Shown here one piece after another: positions 2,474 to 40,805 of a stretch of 64,000 nt of DNA (the stretch's first letter is position 1; each line of letters opens with the position of its first letter). The DNA comes from an uncultured Lachnospiraceae bacterium (GTDB lineage Bacteria; Bacillota; Clostridia; Lachnospirales; Lachnospiraceae): positions 372,001 through 436,000 of the forward strand of contig CACYNO010000001.1 of assembly GCA_902775895.1 (NCBI GenBank). The letters run 5' to 3'. The translations under genes and the position numbers were made by a program. The notes under the pieces were generated by a model that was given only the letters and a program-made list of their open reading frames with translations, searched no databases and was not told where the DNA came from.

Positions 2474-4249
2474 ATTTTACTAACTGAAAATCAAAGGGCG
2501 GCGGCCATGCATTATAAGGGTCCCGCCCTTGTTCTTGCAGGACCCGGCAGCGGAAAGACCACGGTGCTTGTTGAGAGGGTGAAAAACCTTATCCTGGAAC
2601 GAAATGTGAGTCCCGACAAGATCCTTGTGGTTACATTTGCCAGGTCTGCCGCCGCTCAGATGCAGGAACGTTTTTTAAGATCAACTGAAGGAAGATTTGC
2701 TTCCGTTACATTTTCTACAATTCATTCGGTATGTTATTCAATCATTAATTCTGAAGATTCTTTTGTAAATTATTCTTTATTACCCGAGAATGAAAAAACA
2801 GATTTTTTAAGAAAAACCATTCAGGAATATTTTTTAAGATTCCCGGAACAGACTAAAGTGCCGGGATTATTAAAGGATGTTCTGATGGAGTTGTCAGCCT
2901 TTAAAAAAGGTAAAAACATGAGAGGGGGATATAAGACCAAATATTGTGACCGGCGCCTGTTTGAATACTGTAAAAATAAGCTTGAAGAATTTAAGGCGTT
3001 TAATAAATATTTTGATTTTGATGATATGGCAGAAATGACAGACAGATTATTATCATCGAACACTGAACTTTACGGAAGGTCTGTCCGGTTCGAGTATGTG
3101 CTGGTTGATGAGTTTCAGGATACGGGAGCTGATCAGTTTTCGTTTTTAAGAAAGCTTTGCATTGAGGATAATTTTTACGCAGTAGGTGATGAAGACCAGT
3201 CAATTTACGGCTTCAGGGGAGCCTGCCCTGAGATCATGCTTAAGTTTCGGGAATATTTCAGTGATTGCAGGATATACGATCTGCCTGAAAATTTCAGAAG
3301 CCATTCTGAAATAGTAAACAAATCTGCAACACTTATCAAAAATAATAAAAAAAGATATGACAAAAGATCTCTGGCTGTTTTAAAATCCGAAAATGATGAA
3401 AGCGTTAAGATCTTATCCGCAAAAGACGAAAATGAGGAACTTGATCTTTTGATATCAGAGATCAGAAGGGTAGCAAAAACATCGGAGAGCATTGCGGTGC
3501 TTGTCAGGACAAGAGGGTCGCTGGATCTTGTCGCAGGAAAGTTAATTCAAAACGATATCAATTTTTTTGTAAAAGATAAGGTCAGCAATATTTTTGAAGT
3601 TCCTGTTATAAAGACCGTTATGTCTTTTTTTGAAGTATCTGCCGGTGCAGGAAGCACGGATGACTATATAAGGATTTTTAAAACAACGGATCTTAAAGCC
3701 TATGAAAGTTTTTTGGGGTCACATAGTTTCAGTTGGGAAAGTATTCGTTCGTACTACAGAGGAGATGAAAAAGTAAAAGATTTTGAATACAAAGTAAAAA
3801 GCATCAGAAAATTTTCTCCCGAGATCGCACTTGAGTTTATAAGAAATGTTTTAGGGTTGGACAGAAAAATATCTGTTTATGAAAAAAGTAAGCTTTGTGA
3901 ATTTGAGATGGTTATTAAAGGGTGCGAGAATATCCGGAGCGTCTTAGATCGTGAAAAGACTTATAGTGAAATGGTTGAATGTAAGAATACTGATAAAAAT
4001 CTTGTATTATCAACCATACATTCTGCAAAGGGGCTTGAGTTTGACAGAGTGTTCATACCCTTTATGAACGAAGGAAACATCCCGTTATCAAAAGCAGTGT
4101 CTGAAAATGACACGGAAGAAGAACGGAGGATCTTTTATGTAGCGCTTACCAGGGCAAAAAATGGGGTTACAATGAGTTTTCATGAATCCTTACGAAATAA
4201 AAGAGCAGTACCTTCCCGTTTTTTAAAGGAAATGGGATTTTTGCCTTGA
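2474..4249 (+). CDS. Short UvrD/PcrA-like superfamily 1 helicase with AUU start
   Basis: 591-residue SF1A helicase. Visible motifs: Walker A GPGSGKTT (about residue 24), VDEFQDT (about 211), GDEDQSIYGFRGA (motif III), LPENFRSHSEIV (motif IV), TIHSAKGLEFDRVF (motif V) and RRIFYVALTRAK (motif VI, about 550). The Q motif (LTENQRAAA) lies upstream of the first ATG (2507), so translation must begin earlier. The only plausible initiator is ATT at 2474, seven bases after GGAGGA (2461-2466). UvrD and PcrA are usually over 700 residues; this one lacks the long C-terminal tail and has a reduced 2B region. It probably acts in DNA repair or replication restart, but the exact role is unknown. Confidence 0.85.
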   Translation: MLLTENQRAAAMHYKGPALVLAGPGSGKTTVLVERVKNLILERNVSPDKILVVTFARSAAAQMQERFLRSTEGRFASVTFSTIHSVCYSIINSEDSFVNYSLLPENEKTDFLRKTIQEYFLRFPEQTKVPGLLKDVLMELSAFKKGKNMRGGYKTKYCDRRLFEYCKNKLEEFKAFNKYFDFDDMAEMTDRLLSSNTELYGRSVRFEYVLVDEFQDTGADQFSFLRKLCIEDNFYAVGDEDQSIYGFRGACPEIMLKFREYFSDCRIYDLPENFRSHSEIVNKSATLIKNNKKRYDKRSLAVLKSENDESVKILSAKDENEELDLLISEIRRVAKTSESIAVLVRTRGSLDLVAGKLIQNDINFFVKDKVSNIFEVPVIKTVMSFFEVSAGAGSTDDYIRIFKTTDLKAYESFLGSHSFSWESIRSYYRGDEKVKDFEYKVKSIRKFSPEIALEFIRNVLGLDRKISVYEKSKLCEFEMVIKGCENIRSVLDREKTYSEMVECKNTDKNLVLSTIHSAKGLEFDRVFIPFMNEGNIPLSKAVSENDTEEERRIFYVALTRAKNGVTMSFHESLRNKRAVPSRFLKEMGFLP

Positions 4250-38626: not shown

Positions 38627-39421
38627 ATGGATAAGATCGGTTTTATAGGCATGGGGAACATGGGAAGTGCAATGCTTAAAGGTGCGCTTACTTGTTTTTC
38701 TGCAAGCGATATGTGTTTTTATGATATAAATGCGGAGAAATGTGATGCCATTACAAGAGAGACACATGTAATCTCCGTGGGAAGCATACAGGAATGTGTA
38801 AAAGAATGTAAATACATAATCCTTGCCATCAAACCCCAGGCATACGAAGAGGCCACTCAGAAGATAAAGGAAGTCCTTACAAGTGATCACGTTGTTATTT
38901 CACTGGCTCCAACGATCTCGATAAGCGATCTGACCAGGATGCTTGATATAAATGCAAGGATCGTAAGGGCAATGCCAAATACGCCTGCCCTTATAGGAGA
39001 AGGAATGACGGGGCTCTGTGCTAAAGATAATACATTTACCGAAGAAGAACTCTTGACCGTTGAGAAGTTCTTTTCTTCCTTCGGAAAATGCAAATTTGTA
39101 TCAGAAACCGTCATGAGTGCCGTTGTTTGCGCCAGCGGTTCTTCTCCTGCATATGTATATATCTTTATCGAAGCTCTTGCCGATTCCTGTGTGAAATACG
39201 GCATGTCCAGGGAAGATGCATACGAATTTGCTGCACAGGCTGTATACGGGTCTGCTAAGATGGTTGTTGAATCAAAAGAAGTCCCGGCCTCCCTCAAAGA
39301 TAAAGTTTGCTCTCCGGGTGGCACAACTATTAGAGCCGTTGAGGCGTTAGAAGAGCACGGGTTCAGGAACGCTATCTTTAAGGCTACAGAAGCATGTTTT
39401 GATAAATGTGAGGGGAATTAA
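38627..39421 (+). CDS. proC: Pyrroline-5-carboxylate reductase
   Basis: 264 residues. N-terminal Rossmann motif IGFIGMGNMGSAMLKG, the VRAMPNTPALIGEGMTG segment (about 108-125) and the C-terminal family signature SPGGTTIRAVEALEEHGFR. Reduces pyrroline-5-carboxylate to proline with NAD(P)H. AAGGAG precedes the ATG. A terminator follows at 39441-39475. Confidence 0.97.
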   Translation: MDKIGFIGMGNMGSAMLKGALTCFSASDMCFYDINAEKCDAITRETHVISVGSIQECVKECKYIILAIKPQAYEEATQKIKEVLTSDHVVISLAPTISISDLTRMLDINARIVRAMPNTPALIGEGMTGLCAKDNTFTEEELLTVEKFFSSFGKCKFVSETVMSAVVCASGSSPAYVYIFIEALADSCVKYGMSREDAYEFAAQAVYGSAKMVVESKEVPASLKDKVCSPGGTTIRAVEALEEHGFRNAIFKATEACFDKCEGN

Positions 39422-39433
39422 ACCATATTAAAA

Positions 39434-39480
39434 AACATTAAGCGGTTGCTGAACTTGTTAAAGCATCGCTTTTTTAATGT
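39434..39480 (+). terminator. Terminator after proC
   Basis: AGCGGTTGCT (39441-39450) pairs imperfectly with AAGCATCGCT (39461-39470), followed by TTTTTT; an outer ACATTAA/TTAATGT pairing extends the stem. Confidence 0.65.
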
Positions 39481-39490
39481 GAAACTGCAA

Positions 39491-39754
39491 TTCTGTCTTT
39501 GACCGACGATGTTCAGTGACCTGTTTACATTTTCAAACATTAGAAAACGGTTCAAAAAATTAAGACCGGCTAAATCGTTTACGAACAAAAAGCATAGCTG
39601 CTTAGCATATTCATGTAAAGAAAATCTATAACGCAGCATTTATGCTTTTTGTTCGTGTTCAAACGATTTTGTCGGTCTTTAAATTTTTTAGAACCGGATT
39701 CTACAGTTTGAAAATGTAAATCACGGGAGCTGATATAAGTCGGCAAAGACAGAA
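39491..39754. repeat. Long imperfect inverted repeat in a gene-free gap
   Basis: The region 39422-39776 (355 bp) holds no gene. From 39491 to 39754 its two halves are near reverse complements over about 115 bases each. Matching blocks include TTCTGTCTTTG (39491) with CAAAGACAGAA (ending 39754); TTTACATTTTCAAAC (39524) with GTTTGAAAATGTAAA (39706-39720); AAGACCG with CGGTCTT; AAATCGTTT with AAACGATTT; and CGAACAAAAAGCAT with ATGCTTTTTGTTCG. The loop is about 30 bases around 39620. It lies between convergent proC and the DAHP synthase gene. It may be a MITE-like insertion or a structured RNA; no transposase or clear target duplication was seen. Confidence 0.8.
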
Positions 39755-39776
39755 AAACAATATATAACCTAAATAA

Positions 39777-40805
39777 TTATATAAGTTCAGCCATCTCAAG
39801 TAATAATCTTTCTGTGTCATCCCATCCCAGGCAAGGATCGGTGATCGACTGTCCGTAAACACCGTTACCTACTTTCTGGCAACCCGGTTCGATATAACTT
39901 TCAATCATAAATCCTTTTACGATCTCCTTTATATCATCAGAACCGCGTCTGCTGTGCAGAGCTTCCTTTACGATCCTTATCTGTTCTTTGAACTGTTTAC
40001 CGGAATTGCTGTGATTCGAATCAATGATCACGGCAGGGTTTGCAAGTTCTCTGTCCATATACATCTTGTAAAGACGGATAAGATCTTCGTAATGATAATT
40101 AGGTATGTTCTGACCGTGCTTATTAACGGCACCTCTTATTATGGTATGAGTAAGAGGATTGCCGGGAGTCTTTACTTCCCAGTTCCTGTACATAAATGAC
40201 TGTGCGGACTGGGCGGCTACTACAGAGTTAAGCATAACACTGAAGTCTCCGCTGGTGGGATTCTTCATACCCACAGGCACGTCGAAACCGCTGGCGACCA
40301 ATCTGTGCTGCTGGTTCTCAACAGAGCGTGCGCCGACCGCTATATAACTTAATACATCATCAAGATACCAGGCGTTTTCAGGATAGAGCATCTCGTCTGC
40401 AGTCATGAAGCCTGTATTTTCCATAACATGAAGATGCATGTTCCTGATGGCGATAAGACCGGAAAGCAGATCAGATGCTTTTTCGGGATCCGGCTGATGA
40501 AGCATTCCCTTATAACCTGTTCCCGTAGTCCTCGGTTTATTAGTATAAACACGGGGAATAAGCAGAAGCTTCTCATATACCTTGTCCTGAACTTTTCTCA
40601 GACGCTGTGTATAATCCAGTACAGCATCTTCATTATCTGCAGAACACGGACCTATAATAACCAGTACCTTGTCTGATTCGCCTGTGATGATCTCTTTTAC
40701 TTCTTCATCAAAAGCTTCTTTTTTTTCTTTGAAACCCTCCGGTACGGGGTACTGATCTTTGATCTCACCCGGATCCGGAATCTGTTTGATCAATTCAAAA
40801 CTCAT
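39777..40805 (-). CDS. aroF: DAHP synthase (3-deoxy-7-phosphoheptulonate synthase, class I)
   Basis: 342 residues of the AroFGH type: VLVIIGPCSADNEDAV (about 47), PRVYTNKPRTTGTGYKGM, GARSVENQQHRLVASG, VGMKNPTSGD, IDSNHSNSGK and the GFMIESYIEPGCQ segment. Joins PEP and erythrose 4-phosphate, the first shikimate step. Which aromatic amino acid inhibits it cannot be told, so the letter F is nominal. Steps 3, 4 and 5 are encoded 15 kb away in the same window. AGAAGGTAAT precedes the ATG. Confidence 0.94.
   Translation of the reverse strand: MSFELIKQIPDPGEIKDQYPVPEGFKEKKEAFDEEVKEIITGESDKVLVIIGPCSADNEDAVLDYTQRLRKVQDKVYEKLLLIPRVYTNKPRTTGTGYKGMLHQPDPEKASDLLSGLIAIRNMHLHVMENTGFMTADEMLYPENAWYLDDVLSYIAVGARSVENQQHRLVASGFDVPVGMKNPTSGDFSVMLNSVVAAQSAQSFMYRNWEVKTPGNPLTHTIIRGAVNKHGQNIPNYHYEDLIRLYKMYMDRELANPAVIIDSNHSNSGKQFKEQIRIVKEALHSRRGSDDIKEIVKGFMIESYIEPGCQKVGNGVYGQSITDPCLGWDDTERLLLEMAELI

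Follow-up and report, generated by a model that had tools for sequence, protein, structure and literature searches.

The gap between proC and the 3-deoxy-7-phosphoheptulonate (DAHP) synthase gene in a 64,000-nucleotide stretch of an uncultured Lachnospiraceae genome (contig CACYNO010000001.1; the whole stretch is called the window) contains an imperfect palindrome at 39491-39754. This palindrome belongs to a repeat family with members at about 40 places in the same genome, in which the stem varies by compensatory changes and one strand folds better than the other. The reading favoured here, an evenly balanced judgement, takes it for a member of a non-autonomous, lineage-restricted family of mobile hairpins, which spread as one folded strand.

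A Repeat Family of Imperfect Palindromes

The long inverted repeat proposed in the initial annotation is present where it was placed. A scan of the window (arms of at least 20 nt, distance limit 400 nt) gave nine inverted repeats, the best three of which all belong to the palindrome; three nested arm pairs lie within 39524-39720, with lengths of 36, 27 and 22 nt and complementarities of 86, 81 and 91%. The folding energy of 39450-39790 is -139.4 kcal/mol, against -61.4 (standard deviation 5.4) in 100 shuffles (z = -14.4).

A blastn search of the palindrome against its own genome (G000) returned 68 matches, some of which are the other strand of one copy. The blastn matches, a profile search of the fetched regions and the window copy together give the 40 or so places, distributed over contigs C2 (17), C6 (5), C1 and C3 (4 each), C10 and C11 (3 each), C7 (2), and C5 and C12 (1 each); a half copy at C2:69298 is left out of all counts. 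The family model was built from 31 copies, 29 of G000 and 2 of the related genome G004, and scores the window copy at 212.3 bits on the + strand and 103.2 bits on the - strand. Full-length copies have a core of about 185-220 nt. The shortest core is 84 bp long, and at the upper extreme a nested form in a third genome, G009, measures about 600 bp by eye.

The family is restricted to the lineage within the genomes searched. The model matches three of 98 relatives (G000 and the sister species G004 and G009), all within the genus: three of its 11 genomes and none of the 87 others. The sole match in a sample of 397 genomes of the family Lachnospiraceae is the window's own, with none in the other 396; this sample, searched with strict filters and five candidates scored per genome, partly overlaps the 98 relatives and does not list G004 or G009. 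The blastn and covariation checks proposed beforehand gave many dispersed copies and a covarying stem, and the homologues are not confined to a single locus. The early suggestion of a barrier that serves just proC and the DAHP synthase gene does not fit, as relatives occupy some 39 other places.

The copies are unevenly spread. With 14% of the genome, contig C2 carries 42% of the copies (p = 2.7e-6, computed with 18 of 40 copies; the final list has 17 of 40). The four copies of C1 are spread over 613 kb, and a 160-kb stretch of that contig has none. A replication origin region with dnaA, dnaN, recF, gyrB and gyrA, recognised by eye and by gene order, lies on C2 (L132:7113-8468, at about 82.5 kb). 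The replication terminus is probably on C1, since the GC skew switches sign there.

Covariation and Conserved Mismatches

In the alignment of 31 copies, 96.2% of cells are paired and 44 of the 64 stem pairs have changed on both sides (double compensatory changes); none of 500 shuffles attains any of five measures. When the partner is shifted by one column, pairing falls to 46-47%. A doublet mismatch, AT opposite CA, is non-standard in 29 of 31 copies at columns 24/208 and in 29 of 30 at columns 25/207, and two bulges confined to the 3' arm recur, as seen by eye in alignment and structure. The mismatch and bulges are also recognisable in copy L077 of G004, whose stem has diverged from that of the orthologous G000 element. 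The fold appears to be under selection: the stem varies by compensatory changes, and the doublet mismatch and the two one-sided bulges are retained. Two interpretations had been offered at the outset, selected pairing and an ageing element. The first is borne out by the covariation and sharpened to a bias for one strand; the second does not fit the core, where mismatches are non-random.

Which Strand Folds?

Under DNA palindromy alone, G-U and A-C mismatches should occur at much the same rate. When the two arms of each of 41 copies are aligned by plain DNA scoring, the core shows 178 G-U and 29 A-C mismatches, with a G-U excess in 37 copies, an A-C excess in two and a tie in two. Counted by column, 30 show only G-U and 6 only A-C (p = 7e-5), and the corresponding figures for a trimmed set of 71 pairs are 25 and 5 (p = 3e-4). 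For the 41-copy count, the G004 copies L075, L077, L079 and L081 were flipped relative to the model orientation, while L083, L085 and L089 were kept; the flip of L075, L079 and L081 extends what the alignment of L077 with L043 showed. The routes to G-U exceed their mirrors, C-to-T occurring in 17 columns versus G-to-A in 7, and A-to-G in 14 versus T-to-C in 4. Because both routes show the bias, strand-biased deamination alone is insufficient. Mismatches of the outer arms show no G-U bias (58 to 49), and many of the aligned bases there are probably unpaired flank.

In all but one of the 31 copies the + strand forms the more stable fold under RNA and DNA parameters alike, and therefore these energies do not tell RNA from single-stranded DNA. 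The excess of G-U over A-C indicates a strand-specific fold, which disfavours a cruciform, a two-way hairpin or mere decay. More generally, the comparison of G-U with A-C mismatches in palindromic repeats offers a simple sign of a strand that acts as a folded single strand.

Copy-Specific Outer Arms

Outside the core, the palindrome is private to its locus. The terminal blocks TTCTGTCTTTG (39491-39501) and CAAAGACAGAA (39744-39754), initially taken as the ends of the element, are not common to the other aligned copies, and the shared core extends only from about 39516 to 39730. Of 31 left arms, 13 match the right arm of their own copy better than that of any other copy, although only about one would be expected to do so.

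Where do such arms come from? The left arm of copy L048:1971 consists of the final codons of a CNNM/CorC-type gene, which its right arm repeats in antisense. The end of the CorC-type protein is the same in G009 and nearly so in G004; since this end is shared and it is the right arm that is antisense, at least this arm was copied from the host. In copies L043 and L047, which also run into a gene end, copying could have gone in either direction. The host-derived arm of L048 illustrates a possible way for inverted repeats to become long even where SbcD is still present. Absence of SbcD as the cause of long palindromes was considered and rejected, as all 11 genus genomes carry this protein.

Genomic Placement and Turnover

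Gap placement was counted for 39 of the 40 places (C2:154316 was left out). All but one of these copies (38 of 39) adjoin the 3' end of a gene, and the identified neighbours are mostly housekeeping genes. The copies occupy 22 convergent, 16 tandem and one divergent gap, and the 112 gaps of C2 comprise 22 convergent, 71 tandem and 19 divergent. On C2, model matches are held by 7 of 22 convergent gaps versus 10 of 90 others (p = 0.04), a count that takes in three weak matches outside the 40 (C2:40456, 41991 and 112016) and from which three C2 elements are missing that fell outside called gaps. No element lies in any divergent gap when C2, the C1 stretch and the window are taken together (0 of 41). 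In tandem gaps the folding strand is antisense to its neighbours in 11 cases and co-oriented in 5, which is not significant (p = 0.21).

Comparison with sister species points to turnover. The flanks of the short G004 copy L059 adjoin in G000 at C2:216274, giving a clean empty site. The G000 counterpart of the gap holding G004 copy L081 is filled by other sequence, and the gap of copy L048 has a different hairpin in G004 (L099, by eye). Other places are shared: L036 and L058 occupy the same place in two species, the G000 copy being without part of its 3' arm, and L043 and L077 are diverged members in one orthologous gap whose flanks are 73-77% identical. The G009 copies L061 and L062 likewise sit at places shared with another species, as judged by one flank only. 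For the G004 copies L079 and L085 the two flanks each map to separate parts of C2, as if copies had recombined with each other, and at G004 L058 and L081 a break occurs about 0.5-0.65 kb beyond the copy. The family allows gain, loss and arm renewal to be compared between sister species.

How Might the Hairpin Spread?

The following scheme would account for these features. The + strand would become exposed as a single strand, most likely as single-stranded DNA during replication, and fold. An enzyme supplied in trans may then recognise the stem through its mismatch and bulges, much in the manner of REP (repetitive extragenic palindromic) hairpins and integron attC sites. A copy whose + strand folded poorly would not spread; pairing would be kept in this way, and G-U would persist where A-C does not. 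As for the outer arms, fold-back (template-switch) copying of the host DNA next to a copy could create or extend them on the spot, and they would therefore differ from copy to copy. We infer both movement as a folded single strand by an enzyme in trans and fold-back copying of the arms from the pattern of the copies.

Several observations weigh against this scheme. No Y1 transposase (PF01797) and no reverse transcriptase (PF00078) was found in the three carrier genomes, two of which are only 86-88% complete, and no autonomous relative was found. PF01797 matches occur in four of the 11 genus genomes, none of them a carrier. No transposase or recombinase was seen among 20 scanned proteins near copies, other transposase families not having been searched for genome-wide. 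There is a single clean empty site, for which a deletion in G000 is a possible alternative cause, and no target duplication could be fixed there, the flanks being too diverged. Copies L046 and L057 lie at the same place in two species, between tRNA-Gln and tRNA-Ser, which means that some copies are old and stable. The copies are kin, hence the cell counts of 178 and 29 are not independent; 18 of 31 left arms do not find their best fit in their own right arm; and the choice of single-stranded DNA over RNA is a matter of judgement.

A narrower form of the proposal is offered only tentatively. The family may represent a new mobile hairpin, a long single-strand fold of about 185-220 nt. The enzyme that reads it would then have no kinship with Y1 transposases or reverse transcriptases; the hairpin would spread to gene 3' ends and afterwards acquire arms from the host sequence at each site through fold-back copying, and a copy could end up mirroring the adjacent gene in inverted form. 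If the enzyme is new, small DNA would here be moved in a new way. An origin from phages or plasmids was also considered and rejected: among phages the only match, 43 bases long and present in two Yersinia phage phiR1-37 records (E = 6e-3), is taken as chance, one exact pattern sought in viral contigs gave no match, and there was no plasmid match.

Alternative Explanations

Could the family instead function as RNA? Each copy would then encode a structured RNA, a 3'-end or antisense hairpin. The transcript of the + strand would fold, offer its internal loop and bulges to a protein such as RNase III for binding or cleavage, and influence the mRNAs of its neighbours; the copies would persist because of this function. 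Strand-specific covariation with abundant G-U, as seen here, is a classical sign of RNA, and the location next to gene 3' ends and the positions common to two species agree with it; this explanation carries appreciable, if minority, weight. On the other side, read-through would yield the other strand at the 11 of 16 tandem copies that are antisense (not significant, as given above), and the upstream flank of the + strand shows no promoter signal relative to the mirror flank, scores being equal (32 copies, p = 0.44). No Rfam family reaches the threshold in 39300-39900, and eight of the nine sub-threshold matches are microRNA precursors. Three points favour mobility over an RNA function: an orientation of the folding strand that is often, if not significantly, antisense; the lack of a promoter signal; and sites that differ (filled or empty) between sister species.

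The initial annotation had suggested a miniature inverted-repeat transposable element (MITE), in the classical sense one moved by a DDE transposase acting on terminal inverted repeats and now decaying. Part of this suggestion holds, in that there are many dispersed, short, non-coding, palindromic copies and a filled and an empty site. The remainder does not: the outermost repeats differ among copies, where a MITE has terminal inverted repeats shared at fixed ends; lengths vary over the whole range from the 84-bp core to the nested G009 form; covariation spans the whole stem; and mismatches are strand-biased, some of them conserved. No target duplication could be fixed, and the 20 scanned proteins near copies included no autonomous partner. 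A classical MITE is unlikely.

A bidirectional terminator or insulator between convergent genes, acting through RNA from both strands or through a cruciform in the DNA, is very improbable. Convergent gaps hold 22 of the 39 copies while making up 22 of 112 gaps on C2, and there they contain matches more often than other gaps do. A terminator of this kind would have a GC-rich stem with a T run on both strands; T runs are somewhat richer after the - strand hairpin (p = 0.018, 32 copies). A symmetric function, however, predicts no asymmetry between G-U and A-C, yet the asymmetry is strong, and the bulges are one-sided. Moreover, the element is absent from 15 of 22 convergent gaps on C2 and from 10 of 11 on the C1 stretches and in the window, and proC may have its own terminator upstream of the element (by eye; unlisted by the terminator scan).

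The explanation given least credence is a purely mutational one, quasi-palindrome correction and fold-back copying without selection for the fold, which would account for the private outer arms and for the gene end that was copied but would be expected to be strand-neutral and to erase bulges, whereas the core has a strand bias and conserved mismatches.

Relationship to Known Palindromic Repeats

Among bacterial repeats the element is placed with the intergenic palindromic ones, where covariation on one strand and arms private to each copy mark it as a new family. The best functional parallel to the mobile hairpin is provided by Escherichia coli REP hairpins, which, in the available portion of the report, are processed as single strands with strand specificity and require a mismatch bulge (PMC8266576). 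The REP/REPIN sequences with TnpA-REP (RAYT) are likewise intergenic, multi-copy imperfect palindromes, and a strand-specific hairpin with conserved mismatches is common to both. In contrast, the present element measures about 185-220 nt versus 20-40 nt for REP (PMC3733652, as far as its available text goes), shows no conserved GTAG foot motif 5' of the core in copy alignments, has copy-specific outer arms and lacks PF01797 in its three carriers. Because size, foot motif and transposase do not match, it cannot be assigned to REP/REPIN.

ERIC, Correia/NEMIS, the Yersinia palindromic sequence/RU-2 and RPE are likewise short palindromic repeats near genes, and for RU-2 filled and empty sites are reported in the accessible part of the source (PMC2229807). 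The element differs from these MITE-like repeats in its unshared ends, in the one-strand-biased covariation of its stem, and in its conserved internal mismatch and bulges. Integron attC sites, as described in the excerpt available, also act as a folded single strand with strong strand preference; no cassette arrays were noticed around the copies, and the integrase IntI was not searched for. Stem-loop sequence families of bacteria have been surveyed as well, reportedly by Petrillo and others in 2008. The fold of those families is generally common to both strands unless G-U pairs are essential, and the element, with its long and one-strand-biased fold, is not among the families in the available portion of that study (PMC2267715). 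Literature listings contained no description of the family, and a search for Butyrivibrio/Lachnospiraceae hairpins returned nothing; judged only from these listings and the Rfam null result, the family is undescribed.

The proC Locus and Other Hairpins

The features of the locus are collected in Table 1. The proC protein has 91% identity to a protein of an uncultured Lachnospiraceae bacterium. A terminator scan limited to loops of 3-8 nt listed none in the proC-DAHP synthase gap, 39440-39475 included. The sequence GCTGAACTT near the end of proC (39448-39456) mirrors the last DAHP synthase codons (39783-39791); the palindrome may reach further outward through this mirror, and chance is also possible.

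Table 1. Coordinates of the hairpin element and its neighbours in the window.
Feature	Position	Strand	Evidence or remark
proC, pyrroline-5-carboxylate reductase, left neighbour	38627..39421	+	TIGR00112, 256.8 bits
Possible separate intrinsic terminator of proC, upstream of element	39440..39475	+	By eye: imperfect stem, loop of about 11 nt, T run
Left outer arm, copy-specific	39491..39507	+	Pairs with 39739-39754; absent from 16 other aligned copies
Shared core of hairpin element	39516..39730	+	Alignment of 31 copies; model match 39518-39730
AACATTAGAA, 5' side of conserved internal mismatch (AT 39539-39540 opposite CA)	39536..39545	+	
Apical loop, length and sequence differ among copies	39602..39632	+	Copy alignments
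4-nt bulge GTTC of 3' arm only; GTTC, GTTT and similar elsewhere	39657..39660	+	By eye, alignment and structure
Bulge of 3' arm only, TAA here; other copies vary somewhat in sequence and length	39680..39682	+	By eye, alignment and structure
TTCTACAGTT, 3' side of conserved internal mismatch (CA 39704-39705)	39699..39708	+	
Right outer arm, copy-specific	39739..39754	+	Fold and alignment of copies
DAHP synthase, right neighbour, convergent	39777..40805	-	TIGR00034, 253.4 bits

Further hairpins were noted in the same genomes. In G009, related hairpins are nested or have a period of about 145 bp and are often contig-terminal (L060:7394-7990, L063:1-430 and L066:1-400); such arrays probably break the assembly. 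Other long imperfect hairpins on C2 of G000, at 206620-207220, 88665-88904 and 203560-203784, have no model match, and the hairpin pair at 40456/41991 gives weak matches only; all of these may be further families of a similar sort. Two similar hairpins of different sequence lie downstream of a CorC-type gene in G010 (L101, about 2870-3130) and apparently represent another repeat family.
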